A program made the translations under genes and the position numbers. 64,000 nucleotides of DNA, taken from Kineothrix sp. IPX-CK. Lineage in GTDB: Bacteria; Bacillota; Clostridia; Lachnospirales; Lachnospiraceae. Location: positions 4,588,001 through 4,652,000 of the forward strand of contig NZ_CP146256.1 of the NCBI RefSeq assembly GCF_039134705.1, given 5' to 3'. Within the stretch, counting starts at the first letter, position 1; every line of letters begins with the position of its first letter. A model generated the notes under the pieces. The model saw only the letters and a list, made by a program, of their open reading frames with translations. It ran no database searches and had not been told where the DNA came from. Below, in pieces: positions 7,213 through 15,310 of the stretch.

Positions 7213-8031
7213 ATGTCTGAAAATAATAAAACAAAAAAACAAACATTAAAGGAAAGGCTGGCACACGAAAGGCAGCAGGGTATTTTATCGATAGAAAAGA
7301 CTCTGCAATACTTAAATGAGCCCACCTATTATTTTACCGTGGGACAGGAGGTAGTATACGCAAGCCTGAAAAACTGCGTCATCAAGGAAGTGTTATATAA
7401 CGGAAAGGTATATGGTCTTACCGGCAAAGCGATCAGTAACAATTACGGACATCCATATACATACCAGATATACAGGGTTGCGCCATGGATGGATATAAGG
7501 CCCGTTTCACATGAGAATACGAGCTTTGCCAACAATCAGATCTCCAAGCTGACTTTCCAGAACTCTTCTTTAGAAAGTCTCCTTCATCTAAATTATTATT
7601 TTGGCATCGATACGAAGTCGGATTACCAGAGGGAGGACGTCTGGGAGCAAAAGGACAAGGAACTTCTCATCGACAGTATTTTCCACAATATCGATTTGGG
7701 CAAGATTGCTTTAAATCACCTTCCCAAGGAGGAACGCCTTAAACGGAATGCGGATTACGAAATCATCGACGGTAAGCAGCGTCTTAACGCGCTCATCGAT
7801 TACTATGAAAATAAATTTGAATATAAGGGAAAATCTTATAATAACTTAAGCTGGATGGATAAACGGATATTCAAAAACCATCCCATCCGTATGGCCATTG
7901 CCGAAGAAGCACAGACAAAGGACATATTAAAATATTTTCTAATGCTCAATCGTGCCGGAAAAGAGTTGGAAGGGCTTCACCTCGAAAAGGTCAAGAGAAT
8001 GCTGGAGGAATCCGAGCCCGTTCTTTTATGA
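7213..8031 (+). CDS. DUF262-family protein (GmrSD N-terminal/ParB-like)
   Basis: 272-residue soluble protein. From about residue 125 it shows the DUF262 core: DYQREDVWEQKDKELLIDSI, then the hallmark IIDGKQRLNAL near residue 186, and LMLNRAGKELEGLHLEKV at the end. DUF262 is a ParB/Srx-like fold found in type IV restriction (GmrS) and other defence proteins, where the DGQR-like motif contributes to nucleotide binding or hydrolysis. There is no C-terminal DUF1524/HNH nuclease half, and no partner gene is adjacent. The first 120 residues are not recognised. It is a single-gene unit between the opuC operon and a convergent foldase gene. Function unknown. Confidence 0.8.
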   Translation: MSENNKTKKQTLKERLAHERQQGILSIEKTLQYLNEPTYYFTVGQEVVYASLKNCVIKEVLYNGKVYGLTGKAISNNYGHPYTYQIYRVAPWMDIRPVSHENTSFANNQISKLTFQNSSLESLLHLNYYFGIDTKSDYQREDVWEQKDKELLIDSIFHNIDLGKIALNHLPKEERLKRNADYEIIDGKQRLNALIDYYENKFEYKGKSYNNLSWMDKRIFKNHPIRMAIAEEAQTKDILKYFLMLNRAGKELEGLHLEKVKRMLEESEPVLL

Positions 8032-9443: not shown

Positions 9444-9781
9444 TTGAGAGTTCCTCCTCATTTTTACATTATACATTATTTCGAAACATACTAATATCAC
9501 ATATAAAAGAGATATCACAGCATTACACCGAATGGTATTGATAATTATTATAGAGCATAATTGTGATATTACTGTGATTTTCATGCCCTATATTTATGCA
9601 CTCGGCAACATAAGTGTTTCCTACTCATGCAGGTATGAAATCTAATGAATATTCTATCACAAAATATCTTTTTTGTACAAACCTATTTCTAACTTATAGG
9701 AAGCCGTTTAAACTTGTGCTATACTACTGTTATATTTTTATTTCCTTGATTGAGATTGATGGGAAAGGCAGGTGAATCATT

Positions 9782-10519
9782 ATGTTGACAATATATCTAT
9801 GTGATGACAATCAGGAAACCGTTAATCAATACGCCCGACTGCTTAAAAAAATATCGAAGAAAAACAATGTAGATGTTATAATTTCATCTTTTGATAGCGG
9901 CGAGGGGTTACTGTTTCATCTGTTCGATTCGCCGAATCAGGCGGATATCATCTATCTTGATATCCTCATGGGCAAGCTGAACGGAATGGATACCGGTAAG
10001 AAACTGAGGGAGCTGGGATGCAAGTCGGAAATTATTTATCTGACCACGAGTGAAGATTATGTATTCGATGCTTACGATATTTCTCCGGTCAATTATCTGG
10101 TGAAAGATAAAACTTCCACTGTAAGATTTGAAGAAGTCTTCCTCCGTGCCGTAACTTTGGCTCAAAAAAAGGAAAACGATATGTTTGTCTGTGAATCAGG
10201 CAATGTCCAAAAGGTGATTCCGATCAAAGAAATATCCTTTTTTGAAATCTGGAAACGGGTCGTGACGGTTCATTACAATGGGAATGAAACCGTCAGCTTT
10301 TATTCAACAATGGAACAATTGGAAGGCCAGCTGATACATAAGGGCTTTGTCCGTATCCACCGTTCTTACATTGTGAATCTGCCCTATATTGCAAATTTTG
10401 GACAAAACAGTCTCGGTTTAAAGACAGGCGTGGAAATTCCAATCGGCGTTACATACATGAAGCAAGTCAGGCAGGCGTTTCGGGAATATATCAACCGTGC
10501 CAGTATTCATGATTACTAA
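9782..10519 (+). CDS. LytTR-family response regulator (AgrA-like)
   Basis: 245-residue cytoplasmic transcription factor. The N-terminal receiver (1-120) has the acidic pair at DDNQE, the phospho-acceptor Asp near residue 59 in IIYLDILMGKLNGMD, and the Lys in NYLVKDKTS. The C-terminal LytTR DNA-binding domain (about 135-240) shows FFEIWKRVVTVHYNG and the conserved FVRIHRSYIVNLPYI. Followed after 21 nt by a sensor kinase, so it is the regulator of a two-component pair. No AgrB/AgrD-like peptide gene is present beside it. Confidence 0.92.
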   Translation: MLTIYLCDDNQETVNQYARLLKKISKKNNVDVIISSFDSGEGLLFHLFDSPNQADIIYLDILMGKLNGMDTGKKLRELGCKSEIIYLTTSEDYVFDAYDISPVNYLVKDKTSTVRFEEVFLRAVTLAQKKENDMFVCESGNVQKVIPIKEISFFEIWKRVVTVHYNGNETVSFYSTMEQLEGQLIHKGFVRIHRSYIVNLPYIANFGQNSLGLKTGVEIPIGVTYMKQVRQAFREYINRASIHDY

Positions 10520-10540
10520 TGAATAAGGGGGACAGAACAT

Positions 10541-11893
10541 ATGCAGTTATTAGCGCTCGCTTCACTTATTTTATACGATATATTTATCCTTCTATATTTT
10601 AAAACAATCTTTCCGCATAAGAGAAGACACTGGATTTTTTATATATCCGCGGTTGGTATTAATATTGGCGTTACCATATTATCCTATTTGTTTCTGGAAC
10701 ACCGATTCAGCGTCTATCTCATGATGGGTTCTATGATGTTTGCGTTCTATCTGTTGTTTAGAGGCAACTGGGTGCAAATCTTATATGCAGGCAGCATCTA
10801 CATGTTTTCCTTATACAGCAGCCGGGGAATTATCATGTCTATTTATTCCATAGCTTTGCATATCAGCATAAAAGAGGTTCTTCATAATGACATTTATTAT
10901 CATACAATATTTGTATTGGCTATATTTCTTTCCATACTAGTCAGCCTGTTCATCCGTAAGGTAATACTTCCGGATAATAAAGCAAAGTATTTGTTCAATA
11001 ACAGTGTTCAGCTTAGATTTGTAGTCATTTATCTATTTTTCCAGTTGTTATTTCTCACGCTCATAAATGATGCGCGGTATCATGATGATATCAGGCAAAC
11101 CTGGCTTTCTTCCTTATATTTGGGTTCCTGTATTATAAGTAAAGTGTGGCTGGTGTTTGTCTTTAGCCATACGGCCAAAGTATCCGAATTGCTTGAGTAC
11201 GAGTTGCACACCCGCAAGCTGCAAGAACAGCTTTCCCGCCAGGTGCGGCATTATCAGTCATACCGAAAATTTACAGAAAGCTATCGAATGTTCCGGCATG
11301 ATTACGAGAAATTGATGGCTTCCGTCAAAACCATGCTACGCAATCAGGAATATGGAAAAGCCACCCGAATATTGGACGATATACATGATACGATGCAACG
11401 GGACGTACTTGTTCACAAAACCTATTCCAATAATATATTGTTGGATGCCATCTTGCAGGATGCGGCCAACGTCTGTGAAGAAAAAGGTATCCGCTTTTCA
11501 GCACATGTTCATCTCCCTGAAAGTGTTTCAATGACCGAGCTGGATATTGTTCATGTTTTCTCAAATATAATAGATAACTCAATAGAAGCCTGTGATAAAG
11601 TATCCGGTCAGGAACGGTTTGTTGAGGTCATAAGCCGGGGAACTAAGGAGTGGGCGATTGTTGAAGTTTCCAATTCATTTAACGGTGAACTGTTAATGGA
11701 AAACGGCGAACCGAAAACTACAAAAGACAATAAAGATTATCACGGCTTTGGATTACGAATTGTGAAGGAGACAATTGAAACATTAGGAGGGCTACTATTC
11801 ATAGAAACAGATCAATTAAAAAGAATCTTCAAAATAAGGGTGTGTATCCCTAAAGCTTCCTCCCGACGCCAGAATTCTCTCATAGTCCAATAG
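10541..11893 (+). CDS. Sensor histidine kinase, AgrC/GHKL type
   Basis: 450 residues. The N-terminal half (about 1-215) has six to seven hydrophobic helices forming an integral-membrane sensor with almost no extracellular domain, as in AgrC-like quorum sensors. A coiled coil (LEYELHTRKLQEQLSRQ) leads to the H-box FRHDYEKL with the phospho-His near residue 252. The GHKL ATPase domain shows the N-box HVFSNIIDNSIEAC and a G-box YHGFGLRIVKE. It phosphorylates the LytTR regulator encoded upstream. The signal is unknown. Confidence 0.9.
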   Translation: MQLLALASLILYDIFILLYFKTIFPHKRRHWIFYISAVGINIGVTILSYLFLEHRFSVYLMMGSMMFAFYLLFRGNWVQILYAGSIYMFSLYSSRGIIMSIYSIALHISIKEVLHNDIYYHTIFVLAIFLSILVSLFIRKVILPDNKAKYLFNNSVQLRFVVIYLFFQLLFLTLINDARYHDDIRQTWLSSLYLGSCIISKVWLVFVFSHTAKVSELLEYELHTRKLQEQLSRQVRHYQSYRKFTESYRMFRHDYEKLMASVKTMLRNQEYGKATRILDDIHDTMQRDVLVHKTYSNNILLDAILQDAANVCEEKGIRFSAHVHLPESVSMTELDIVHVFSNIIDNSIEACDKVSGQERFVEVISRGTKEWAIVEVSNSFNGELLMENGEPKTTKDNKDYHGFGLRIVKETIETLGGLLFIETDQLKRIFKIRVCIPKASSRRQNSLIVQ

Positions 11894-12076
11894 TACCTGG
11901 TCGTTCTGTATGCATATGTTCATCCATGATTCTCACCGAATATCCTTATGTAATTGGGAACAAAAAAAGGCAAATTGAGTGCATAGTAAACCATAATGTT
12001 GTTTAGCCATTTTATACTTATACCGCGAGTACGGCTATGTACTCTATTTCAATTGACCTTAAAGGAGGAATCCTGT

Positions 12077-12598
12077 ATGAAATATGAAAATAAACCATCC
12101 AAGTTCACCTGGGAAGGTCTTGGAAATATTGGCGAGGGCAGAAAAAACCTTGGGCCGGATATGCCGGTGCTCATTTACCGTCTGTTTCAATATACCTTGA
12201 AAGATATTTTATCCCGGGAATACGATGAAGTGACCGCCAGCAGCCTATATCGCGCAGCCGGACATATGGCCGGTACCGAATTGGCAAAAAATGTGCTGGA
12301 TCTTTCCGGCGACTTCGATTACTTTATCGCTAACCTGACCAACAAACTAAAGGAGCTGAAAATTGGCGTTCTGCGTATTGATAAAGCCGACTTGGATTCG
12401 CTTTCCTTTACCTTAACGGTTTCAGAAGATCTGGATTGTTCAGGCCTGCCTATTTCGGGTGAAACCGTGTGCGACTATGATGAGGGATTTATTGCAGGCA
12501 TTCTCGAAACATACAGCAGTCGTCAATTTATTGTAAAAGAAATCGACTGCTGGTCTACCGGAGACAGAACCTGCCGATTTTCCGCAATTCCAAAATAG
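12077..12598 (+). CDS. V4R (4-vinyl reductase) domain sensor protein
   Basis: 173 residues, essentially one V4R domain: GPDMPVLIYRLFQYTLKDIL at the start, YRAAGHMAGTELAKN, a FTLTVSEDLDCSGLP strand, and the C-terminal CDYDEGFIAGILE plus CWSTGDRTCRFSAI. V4R domains bind small hydrophobic molecules or metals and often serve as input modules. ATG 12077 is chosen because AAAGGAGGA lies 7 nt upstream; an in-frame extension to 11996 has no support. Followed after 45 nt by a diguanylate cyclase, so it may supply the input for that enzyme. The cysteines CD, CW and CRF are possible ligand or metal contacts (inference). Confidence 0.85.
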   Translation: MKYENKPSKFTWEGLGNIGEGRKNLGPDMPVLIYRLFQYTLKDILSREYDEVTASSLYRAAGHMAGTELAKNVLDLSGDFDYFIANLTNKLKELKIGVLRIDKADLDSLSFTLTVSEDLDCSGLPISGETVCDYDEGFIAGILETYSSRQFIVKEIDCWSTGDRTCRFSAIPK

Positions 12599-12643
12599 TC
12601 TGCACCAGTTATATGAGAATGGTCAGGAAAGGAAGTAACGAAG

Positions 12644-13957
12644 GTGGACGATATCAGTCAAAAGACACTTATAGCTATGCAAGATGTACTGGAGAAGCTG
12701 CTATCCGGCAAGCAGTGTGGCGTAATGGAAGTACATACCTCTATACCCGAACTGCAGGCACTCGTTACGAAAATGAATCAATTGATTCAGAATTTGAACG
12801 AAATAAATCATCTGGCAACAGATCTTTCGCAAGGTAAGCTGGATACTCCAGTGCCACCCCGGCATAACTATATGGCCAGTCCATTGAAGCAGTTACACTC
12901 CCAACTGTCTATTTTGACATGGAGTTTGCGGCAGCTGAGGTCAGGATATGTTGTCAGTAAATTTGAGAATACCGGTGAATTATTTGATGCATGTAATGAA
13001 CTGGTCGATCAGGTAGCGGTATTTTCCACGCAGGAAGCTGACAGCATAACCCCCAGTATGTCAATATCATTCAATAGCTGGCGTTATCATCAGATCCTCC
13101 AGACTCTCAATCTTCTTCATGTGTCAGTTTTGGAGGTAGACGGCAACGGACGTGTGATATACGCCAATCTCTCAGCAAAAGAAATGTTTGGAGATATCAA
13201 ATACATTTCAGAACAAACGAAAAGCAATGTAATTAAATTTATTGCAACAAATATCATAATTGACAAAGAAAATAATATTTTTCCGATTCATCAGGAGATT
13301 TATGAAGAAAGCAGCAGCACATGGTATCAAATTACATCCGACAGGTTTTTATTGCCAAATGGACAAGTGTGCGTATTCAACGTGATTGACAATATCAGTA
13401 AATGGAAGTTTAATGAATGCAAATTAAAAATGTCTGCCGCGATTGATGAAATGACAGGAGCCTATAACCGTAAATCCGGGCTGGAGGAATTGGAGAATAT
13501 TATGACCCGGGCCGATTCTTCAAAAACACACTGCATTGCCTTTATCGATATTGATGGCCTGAAACCCATCAACGATAACTACGGTCATAGTGAAGGTGAT
13601 TATGCAATTAAAACTATTGCCAACGTACTTCTCTCATCAGTTCGTGATTCGGATGTGGTTTGCAGATATGGAGGAGATGAGTTTATGATTATTTTTAAAA
13701 ACAGCGAAGAGGATGCGGCAGAAAAAATCATCACAAGAATGTGTGACAAATTAAAAGAACTCGGGAATAAGACCCCCAAACCTTATACAATGTCCTTCAG
13801 CTATGGTATTAAGGCATTTTCTAATTGTACTGATTCTGCCTATAATATTACAGACTTGTTAAAAGAGGCCGATCAAAAGATGTATCAATACAAAACCAAA
13901 AAAAGAAGGTGCAAAGAGGGAATTCCGGCCTCAGTTAATAGGCAGCAGCATAGTTGA
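12644..13957 (+). CDS. Cytoplasmic PAS-GGDEF diguanylate cyclase
   Basis: 437 residues, no membrane segment. N-terminal helical/HAMP-like region (residues about 1-130, including LATDLSQGKLDTPVPPRHNY), a PAS domain (about 148-255, LLHVSVLEVDGNGRVIYANLSAKEMFGD), and a C-terminal GGDEF domain (about 265-425). The active site is intact: DIDGLKPINDNYGHSEGD and RYGGDEFMIIF. An RxxD inhibitory I-site (RDSD) sits five residues before GGDEF, so the enzyme is likely catalytic and product-inhibited. Makes c-di-GMP from two GTP. Start is GTG 12644, with AGGAAGG about 9 nt upstream. It lies between V4R and ComFB genes. Confidence 0.93.
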   Translation: MDDISQKTLIAMQDVLEKLLSGKQCGVMEVHTSIPELQALVTKMNQLIQNLNEINHLATDLSQGKLDTPVPPRHNYMASPLKQLHSQLSILTWSLRQLRSGYVVSKFENTGELFDACNELVDQVAVFSTQEADSITPSMSISFNSWRYHQILQTLNLLHVSVLEVDGNGRVIYANLSAKEMFGDIKYISEQTKSNVIKFIATNIIIDKENNIFPIHQEIYEESSSTWYQITSDRFLLPNGQVCVFNVIDNISKWKFNECKLKMSAAIDEMTGAYNRKSGLEELENIMTRADSSKTHCIAFIDIDGLKPINDNYGHSEGDYAIKTIANVLLSSVRDSDVVCRYGGDEFMIIFKNSEEDAAEKIITRMCDKLKELGNKTPKPYTMSFSYGIKAFSNCTDSAYNITDLLKEADQKMYQYKTKKRRCKEGIPASVNRQQHS

Positions 13958-14007
13958 TTCTAAACAAGCAACAGATAGTACTGGTGATAGAAAGGAAATC
14001 GTCCTCC

Positions 14008-14289
14008 ATGAATAAAAAATTCAATTCAAATAACATGATGGAACAAATGGTTGAATATAAACTGCCGGAGCTGATGAAGGCATCGAAAATGTGTACTTGT
14101 GAACGATGCCGCGCTGACGTGCTCGCATTGGTATTGAACGAGCTGCCGCCAAGATATGTTGTGACCCGCGTTGGTGAGGCGATGACGCGATTTGAGCTTT
14201 TGAACACTCAGGCACAAACCAATATTACCACCGCAATTATGTTCGCCGTTAAGAAAGTATCCCAAAATCCCCGCCATGATGAAACGTAA
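14008..14289 (+). CDS. comFB: ComFB-family protein, probable cyclic-dinucleotide receptor
   Basis: 93 residues matching ComFB throughout: NMMEQMVEYKLPELM, the Cys cluster CTCERCRADVLALVLNELPPRYVVT, and the C-terminal QTNITTAIMFAVKKVSQNPRH. The first Cys group (C-x-C-x-x-C) resembles a metal site. In Bacillus the gene lies in the late competence comF operon. ComFB proteins have more recently been reported as receptors for cyclic dinucleotides; this is recalled knowledge, not seen here. Its position 50 nt after a diguanylate cyclase supports that role. ATG 14008 is preferred; the frame is open back to 13954 without a good ribosome binding site. Ends 20 nt from a convergent LacI gene. Confidence 0.88.
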   Translation: MNKKFNSNNMMEQMVEYKLPELMKASKMCTCERCRADVLALVLNELPPRYVVTRVGEAMTRFELLNTQAQTNITTAIMFAVKKVSQNPRHDET

Positions 14290-14308: not shown

Positions 14309-15310
14309 TCATTCTCTAGGGCAAGTGGATTCTCTCGGTATGATTCTCCCATGCAAGATGGTGATGCCGCCTTCCTCTTCCCCTTTTATCAGACCCACGA
14401 GCTGCTCAACAGCAAGCGCTCCCTGCTTTTCGAAAGAAGTTCTGATGGTGGTGAGGGAAGGTCTTACCAACCGTGCTGTTTCGATATCGTCGCATCCGAT
14501 AACGCTAATCTGCTCCGGCACACGGATGCCTTCTTCTAAAAGTGCTTCCAGCGTACCAATCGCGCTTTCATCATTGGCGGCAAAGACAGCTTCAGGAAGC
14601 TTCTTCCCCGTCTCCAGAAAATCCTTCATGGAATTGTAAGAAGCCTCCCGCTCAAAGTCACCCTGCAGGATATAATCTTCCTCCAAAGTGATGCCCGCCT
14701 GCCTCAATACGTTAATAAAGCCTCTTTCTCGCCCAGTGCTGTCGAAGTTGTTCTCCACACCTCGCATGTAAGCGACAGTCTTATGCCCTAATTCCAGCAA
14801 AAACTTTGCGGCGAGTTCGCCCTCGTGATAGGAGTCAAACACAACGCTGGATATATACTTTCCTTTCATCTCTCTATCTATGAACACAGTGGGGATATCG
14901 TTATCCACCAGCATTTTTATATGCTCTTCCTTGATCCATCCGTTTAAAACGATGGCACCGTCCACTCGTTTGCCCAAAATATTTGCCATCATATTGTTGG
15001 ATTTGTCGCTGATAAAAATATTCAGCTCATATCCGTGCTTTTTGCATGCCCGAAAGATGGAATCTGCCAATACTCCATAATAAGGTCCCTTTATGGAGTT
15101 AATGAACAGTCCGATTACATTGGTCGCCTGTGCCTTTAAATTTCTTCCGTTCAAATTCGGCATGTAATGCAGTTTCTCCGCTATCTTTAAAATATGCTGT
15201 TTTGTATCGGGATGCAGAACATCTACATCGTTTAAAGCATTGGATACTGTAGATATGGATACTCCGGCTTCCTTTGCCACATCCTTAATAGTCACTTTTT
15301 TCGATGCCAC
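14309..15310 (-). CDS. LacI-family transcriptional regulator
   Basis: 333 residues. N-terminal LacI HTH and hinge (residues 1-60: VTIKDVAKEAGVSISTVSNALN, PNLNGRNLKAQATNVIGLF), then a periplasmic-binding-protein-like effector domain with the usual blocks (DGAIVLNGW, IPTVFIDRE, GHKTVAYMRG, GRERGF, PEAVFAANDESAIGTLEAL, ISVIGCDDIETARLVRPSLTTIR). Typically a sugar-responsive repressor. It is the last gene of a minus-strand run with YbaK, S1, glgX and pfkB genes upstream, so the carbohydrate genes are possible targets. The effector cannot be inferred. GTATCCCTCC-like complement gives a fair ribosome binding site. Confidence 0.93.
   Translation of the reverse strand: MASKKVTIKDVAKEAGVSISTVSNALNDVDVLHPDTKQHILKIAEKLHYMPNLNGRNLKAQATNVIGLFINSIKGPYYGVLADSIFRACKKHGYELNIFISDKSNNMMANILGKRVDGAIVLNGWIKEEHIKMLVDNDIPTVFIDREMKGKYISSVVFDSYHEGELAAKFLLELGHKTVAYMRGVENNFDSTGRERGFINVLRQAGITLEEDYILQGDFEREASYNSMKDFLETGKKLPEAVFAANDESAIGTLEALLEEGIRVPEQISVIGCDDIETARLVRPSLTTIRTSFEKQGALAVEQLVGLIKGEEEGGITILHGRIIPRESTCPRE

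Follow-up and report, generated by a model that had tools for sequence, protein, structure and literature searches.

The DNA analysed here, referred to as the window, is a 64,000-nucleotide stretch of Kineothrix sp. IPX-CK (contig NZ_CP146256.1, positions 4,588,001 to 4,652,000) and forms part of a 4.72-Mb single-contig genome. It carries, on the plus strand, genes for an AgrA-like response regulator, an AgrC-like sensor histidine kinase, a stand-alone V4R protein, a diguanylate cyclase and the small protein ComFB, with a direct repeat in front of the V4R gene (Table 1). An earlier note, made from the sequence alone, had read the last three genes as a possible complete and self-contained pathway of cyclic-dinucleotide signalling. 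These three genes are real and their reading frames correct: each product was recognized by a Pfam model, and the start codons were consistent with those of the orthologues in a second genome, G1008. The intergenic gaps are 45 bp (V4R/cyclase) and 50 bp (cyclase/ComFB), and each contains a purine run that resembles a ribosome-binding site by eye.

G1008 has only the phylum in common with the window genome and belongs to a different class. Orthologues of all five genes are located there on one strand and in the same order as in the window (1,612,364-1,626,164), with amino-acid identities of 79% for the regulator, 73% for the kinase, 87% for V4R, 69% for the cyclase and about 70% for ComFB. Since all five orthologues lie inside 14 kb of one distant genome, the gene set is not a product of chance. 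The ratios of nonsynonymous to synonymous substitution rates (dN/dS) were, in the same order, 0.13, 0.12, 0.06, 0.18 and 0.20, and are rough because dS is close to 1. A blastn comparison with 120 kb of G1008 returned three blocks of the window, 9763-11871, 11953-13903 and 14006-14284. Homology begins at 9763, the upstream edge of the regulator block, and the second block starts exactly at the first base of the direct repeat ATTGGGAACA-N11-ATTGAGTGCA. The location of the V4R cluster directly behind an AgrC/AgrA-like pair, mentioned in the earlier note, was confirmed by Pfam, but the pair is probably itself part of the module, which makes the unit larger than the three genes. A LytTR regulator next to a GHKL membrane kinase, the combination expected of an agr locus, was found by Pfam, while the AgrC equivalog of NCBIfam gave the kinase 33 bits, far under the cutoff of 500.

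Table 1. Features of the five-gene region and of its right-hand neighbour (positions in the window).
Feature	Position	Strand	Evidence or remark
AgrA-like response regulator, receiver and LytTR DNA-binding domain	9782-10519	+	Pfam LytTR 1.8e-19, Response_reg 3.1e-09
AgrC-like GHKL sensor histidine kinase	10541-11893	+	Pfam HATPase_c_5 3.2e-21
Direct repeat ATTGGGAACA-N11-ATTGAGTGCA, candidate site of a LytTR regulator	11953-11983	+	Same place before V4R in G1008
TATACT, candidate -10 box	12013-12018	+	60 bp past repeat start; equal offset (60) in G1008
Stand-alone V4R protein, 173 amino acids	12077-12598	+	Pfam V4R 4.1e-14, 52.8 bits, cutoff 31
Cytosolic diguanylate cyclase starting at GTG, with an N-terminal region, a weak PAS and a GGDEF domain that has an I-site	12644-13957	+	Pfam GGDEF 4.5e-39
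Cyclase-ComFB gap, possible remnant of a c-di-GMP-I riboswitch (suggestive only)	13958-14007	+	Alignment to G1008 riboswitch
ComFB, 93 amino acids, CxCxxC and His zinc ligands	14008-14289	+	Pfam ComFB 1.8e-25, 89.2 bits, cutoff 25
LacI-type gene, converging from the right	14309-15310		Pfam

In G1008, the homologous blocks are separated by a PgaC-like glycosyltransferase gene (166 bits, under the model cutoff of 422), an opposite-strand chemoreceptor-CheV-chemoreceptor set and an opposite-strand DUF4261 gene. Moreover, a PTS_EIIC-EAL phosphodiesterase gene follows ComFB there (L228:2179-4293); Pfam found no such gene behind ComFB among the region proteins of the window. The genes for input, enzyme and receptor recur together in G1008, but the term self-contained goes too far, because the G1008 version adds a phosphodiesterase, chemoreceptors, glycosyltransferases and a riboswitch. 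The last of these is a cyclic diguanylate (c-di-GMP)-I riboswitch located after the cyclase and oriented toward ComFB (66.5 bits, gathering threshold 35, E 2e-11). Six riboswitches of this class are present in G1008 and one in the window genome, at 1.33 Mb, far from the module; Rfam gave no riboswitch match in the window. The gapped alignment of the 50-bp cyclase-ComFB gap to the G1008 riboswitch scored 34.5 against a shuffle mean of 20.5, with 1 of 500 shuffles as high. The gap may represent a riboswitch remnant, though this is a weak indication, and the loss of the riboswitch would have put ComFB right behind the cyclase.

The direct repeat is composed of two 10-mers and an 11-bp spacer, 31 bp in all, with a period of 21 bp. 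Between the window and G1008, the first 60 bases of the repeat region upstream of V4R are identical at 51 positions. A sigma-70 scan did not list the candidate -10 box. A 12-base core of the repeat was found at 4 of 247 loci, all from the window genome and G1008. The search pattern derived from the V4R, ComFB and chemoreceptor sites, applied to both genomes with one mismatch allowed, gave four matches in G1008, three of them exact, all at the module (reversed control, none), and two in the window genome, of which the one before V4R was exact (reversed control, two). The fourth G1008 match, with one mismatch, lies 110 bp ahead of an NfrB-like glycosyltransferase gene (NfrB model 282 bits, under the cutoff of 1170), whose product contains an MshE-related c-di-GMP-binding domain (57.2 bits, cutoff 38). 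When 400 kb of G1008 was scanned with a consensus, five sites had no more than one mismatch, and the fifth of them lies ahead of the PgaC-like gene; two more sites had three mismatches. Three shuffles gave on average 2.0 sites at up to three mismatches. The consensus had been built from these very sites, so that the scan does not provide independent proof. The 13-base core occurred six times in L228, against 1.06 expected (0 of 200 shuffles), and four times in the window at up to two mismatches, against 4.0 expected, which is unremarkable. Nearly all LytTR regulators are described as using two repeats of 9-11 nucleotides with a spacer of 11-13 nucleotides and no common consensus (PMC4847170). 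The repeat has this layout (10 + 11 + 10), and for this reason the adjoining conserved AgrA-like protein is the candidate regulator that may bind it.

The V4R protein was followed beyond the two genomes. Relatives were found in 16 of 391 class genomes, 9 of 61 relatives and 27 of 398 phylum genomes, with the window genome counted each time and many of the phylum matches weak or partial. An alignment was made of 28 full-length V4Rs, including those of the window and G1008 and leaving out weak or partial ones (e.g. G458, G509, G555, G617, G684, G602). At 19 of these 28 loci, again with the window and G1008 included, a same-strand GGDEF open reading frame (ORF) follows V4R within 400 bp, as counted with the wider of two GGDEF profiles; at L152 it lies about 510 bp past V4R, and at L232 a GGDEF gene stands upstream on the same strand. 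Five further loci (L127, L148, L230, L231, L236) have a same-strand hybrid histidine kinase after V4R, with one gene intervening at L231, and the N-terminal region of the window cyclase was matched by four of these five kinases (E 4e-11 to 3e-04). Because its partners include both cyclases and hybrid kinases, V4R appears to be an independent sensor gene that serves varied output proteins. The expectation that the V4R-GGDEF-comFB neighbourhood would be conserved was borne out in G1008, and V4R-cyclase pairs recur across many families, but the triple is not general.

A similar arrangement is known for H-NOX sensors, which stand alone, adjoin genes of GGDEF proteins or hybrid kinases, and act on cyclase or histidine kinase partners (PMC8738867). 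The H-NOX domain binds heme, however, whereas V4R has a zinc-type site and its action in trans on the partner is a proposal; V4R was the only domain that Pfam found in the sensor, with no H-NOX-type heme NO/O2-binding domain. A V4R domain is also present in MopR, CapR/DmpR and PoxR, and the zinc ligands of MopR, three Cys and one Glu (PMC10715001), align to C132, E155, C158 and C166 of the window protein in a weak profile match. Each of these residues is at least 90% conserved among the 28 V4Rs, and C121 is an additional near-invariant Cys. We take the MopR ligands to be numbered C155, E178, C181 and C189. In contrast to these phenol regulators, the window V4R stands alone, without sigma-54 activator parts. 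The single V4R sequence had MJ1460 as its top match in the PDB (0.061), and the MsvR equivalog gave 60.8 bits against a cutoff of 220, over the C-terminal half only. A single-sequence fold model of V4R, which had a predicted local distance difference test score of 41.5, was not used. V4R had no match across 72,556 plasmid records or in PHROGs. In the open-licence literature, nothing was found on 4-vinyl reductase together with c-di-GMP, and one text on V4R with GGDEF described PYP-V4R fusions.

The cyclase has an RYGGDEF active-site motif and, five residues ahead of it, an RxxD I-site, both of which are also found in G1008, in agreement with the claim that GGDEF and I-site are intact. The claim of solubility agrees with the lack of a membrane segment by eye. 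Of the proposed PAS-GGDEF architecture, the GGDEF part is firm, and the PAS match is weak (0.0022, 18.4 bits, under the cutoff of 22.6). Judged from its motifs, the enzyme probably makes c-di-GMP. ComFB is, as had been noted, small and Cys-containing. Residues C29, C31, C34, H90, N9, E12, D37 and Y50 are invariant across 16 aligned ComFBs, and N44 is present in the window protein. The structure of B. subtilis ComFB (4wai) was matched at 2e-07, and the Bacillus-type ComFB equivalog of NCBIfam gave 52.5 bits against a cutoff of 120. The window ComFB retains the zinc-binding and dimer residues described for the B. subtilis protein, as matched by spacing (PMC4381287).

ComFB is present in 67 of 397 family genomes and 112 of 391 class genomes. 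In the class draw, it was found in 12 of 16 genomes with a V4R match and in 100 of 375 without one (one-sided Fisher test 1.2e-4, kinship ignored, both class draws being taken as identical genomes); for strong V4R matches only, the count was 7 of 10 (Fisher 0.007, kinship likewise ignored). Within the genus of the window genome, ComFB was absent from all 15 other genomes (completeness 65-100%), which ruled out conservation of the triple in close relatives, and the window genome itself has a single ComFB match by profile search. V4R was found in four of the 15, at 45-49% identity to the window protein. In the V4R tree, the window and G1008 proteins are sisters (100/99) within a clade (99/99) holding three f27 genomes, and the four same-genus V4Rs branch apart from this clade. 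Horizontal transfer of the five-gene set is likely because ComFB is missing from the 15 genomes and their V4Rs belong to another clade. The G+C content (module 40.2%, window 38.7%, G1008 stretch 46.1%) is uninformative on origin.

On balance, we lean slightly towards the view that the locus is a horizontally acquired c-di-GMP module in which an AgrCA-type switch drives the operon, with V4R as a modulator of the cyclase and ComFB as the reader of its product. The AgrC-like kinase would sense a signal from outside and phosphorylate the AgrA-like LytTR regulator, which, bound to the direct repeat, would switch on the V4R-cyclase-ComFB operon. V4R would sense a small molecule or the redox or metal state in the cytosol and control the cyclase in trans, in the manner of H-NOX. 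The c-di-GMP produced would be bound by ComFB and the signal relayed via a probable protein partner, as CdgR, a ComFB homologue of Anabaena, acts via the transcription factor DevH (PMC13075795). The output is likely the choice between motile and sessile life, because the repeat in G1008 also precedes ComFB-EAL genes, chemoreceptor genes and two glycosyltransferase genes of exopolysaccharide type. A control of c-di-GMP genes by a LytTR regulator has been reported for C. difficile, where an agrA mutation alters c-di-GMP genes and flagella are affected as well; there, however, the locus is agrACDB, whereas no AgrB/AgrD was seen nearby here and a cyclase operon adjoins (PMC3754575).

Several observations weigh against this view. 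The full five-gene set was found in only one further genome, and even there about 8 kb separate V4R from the kinase pair, while the cyclase and ComFB are 1.5 kb apart and have a gene of the opposite strand between them. No AgrB or AgrD was detected among the nine region proteins run against Pfam, and no genome-wide search with AgrB/AgrD models was made. The candidate promoter is followed, ahead of V4R, by a terminator-like hairpin at 12027-12044 (one of six in the stretch, against 3.7 expected). Since the window genome has 20 GGDEF matches, c-di-GMP is not private to the operon. A solved c-di-GMP receptor (8hja) matched the window ComFB at 0.09 only. The V4R profile matched the phenol sensor MopR (7vqf) weakly, at E 0.012, and in this alignment the residues that anchor phenol, Trp134 and His106 (PMC10715001), have F111 and a Lys, respectively, as their counterparts; because the zinc ligands align and these residues do not, a zinc site in V4R is likely and a phenol ligand is not indicated. 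Finally, the transfer draws on a tree of V4R only and on the absence in the genus.

It is also conceivable, though unlikely, that V4R works together with the cyclase and that ComFB is a separately mobile passenger, which came to lie behind the cyclase and has an unrelated role in competence, pili or flagella. V4R-cyclase pairs occur in many genomes without an adjoining ComFB, which elsewhere often stands among aro, efp and type IV pilus-like or flagellar genes. A GGDEF ORF was found within 400 bp of 4 of 128 ComFB ORFs, and on the same strand at 3 (the window, G484 and G684). These ORFs comprised all family matches, about 29 best-scoring class loci (up to 3.2 kb) and chosen others, some of them cut at contig ends, and G1008 was scored as a miss in this count because of the 1.5 kb between its cyclase and ComFB. 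The pairs in G484 and G684 are independent instances, and in G484 the cyclase adjoining ComFB shares 45% identity over 335 amino acids with that genome's V4R-linked cyclase. The G1008 locus argues against a passenger role: ComFB is accompanied there by all four other genes and preceded by the repeat, and its dN/dS is 0.20. A distinctly improbable variant holds that ComFB reads c-di-AMP, or the zinc or redox state, and acts back on either the cyclase or the regulator, which would make the operon a point of crosstalk instead of a c-di-GMP pathway equipped with a receptor. Synechocystis ComFB binds c-di-AMP (dissociation constant 2.6 uM) besides c-di-GMP (PMC12313861), and B. subtilis ComFB binds zinc, has been proposed as a sensor of zinc levels or oxidative stress and can be deleted with transformation unaffected (PMC4381287). 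The operon partner is, however, a c-di-GMP cyclase, and an EAL phosphodiesterase gene stands behind ComFB in G1008.

The wiring of the promoter can be questioned too. The repeat could be the site of another regulator or an alternative-sigma promoter, the five genes travelling together without the proposed switch, which we regard as somewhat unlikely. A promoter of the extracytoplasmic function (ECF) type was in fact the first reading of the repeat, as its GGGAAC resembles what we take to be an ECF-type -35 element, and it was demoted to a rival once the period of 21 bp and the conservation of the LytTR regulator had become apparent. The AgrA consensus is not matched, the halves of single sites are identical at 6-8 of 10 positions, and in neither genome does the repeat stand before the regulator gene itself. 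Moreover, the core is missing at the f27 sister V4R loci and at all other loci of the 247. On the other side, the two-block layout and 21-bp period fit LytTR sites (PMC4847170), and a LytTR regulator is conserved nearby in both genomes. The repeat halves agree at 42 of 60 positions, a value reached in 14 of 20000 column permutations, with the sites picked after the fact.

To our knowledge, the input signal and the dedicated receptor are unknown for most enzymes of c-di-GMP metabolism. The module, if the favoured reading holds, would bring a two-component switch, a V4R sensor, a cyclase and a receptor together in one compact and probably horizontally moved unit. The recurrence of the five genes with the same DNA switch in another class suggests a small signalling circuit moving as a unit. 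ComFB, the role of which in Firmicutes is unclear, would gain a concrete candidate partner in the cyclase operon; the window protein belongs to the same family as Synechocystis ComFB and CdgR, but differs from them in that its gene sits behind a cyclase gene (PMC12313861, PMC13075795). In a wider and tentative perspective, to which we give slightly less than even weight, V4R proteins may generally act in trans as the sensory subunit of cyclases and hybrid kinases of Firmicutes, H-NOX-like but built on a zinc-site domain. In the present module, the V4R-cyclase pair would have been coupled to a switch of Agr type and to ComFB as receptor, giving a portable c-di-GMP circuit that combines transcriptional and metabolic input with enzyme and receptor.

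Other V4R and ComFB loci showed different surroundings. At L149 and L153, both of the same genus as the window, V4R has neither a cyclase nor a hybrid kinase as neighbour. A RACo-like 2Fe-2S ATPase adjoins V4R at the same-genus loci L149 and L150 (Pfam) and L153 and L154 (by eye), with a NifH-family protein as well at L150; these neighbours hint that the same-genus branch serves metal or redox metabolism. Short ComFB genes of the class are often accompanied by shikimate (aro), peptidase, efp and type IV pilus-like genes (L158, L163, L166-L169, L170-L198; judged largely from start sequences). In Lachnospiraceae, a long ComFB with a Glu/Ala-rich N-terminus and a C-terminal ComFB domain lies between a ParA-like ATPase and FliD-FliS (L039 by Pfam; L049, L246, L247 and others by eye), and a flagellar role is likely for this form; L039 additionally contains CheC, CheD, CheV and an EAL-HDOD protein. 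In Marasmitruncus massiliensis (L031), a ComFB 52% identical to that of the window is adjoined by a serine-recombinase-like ORF, with a second some kb away (by eye). Elsewhere in the window, the 272-amino-acid protein encoded at 7213-8031 gave a partial match to the GmrSD_N domain and nothing more in Pfam.

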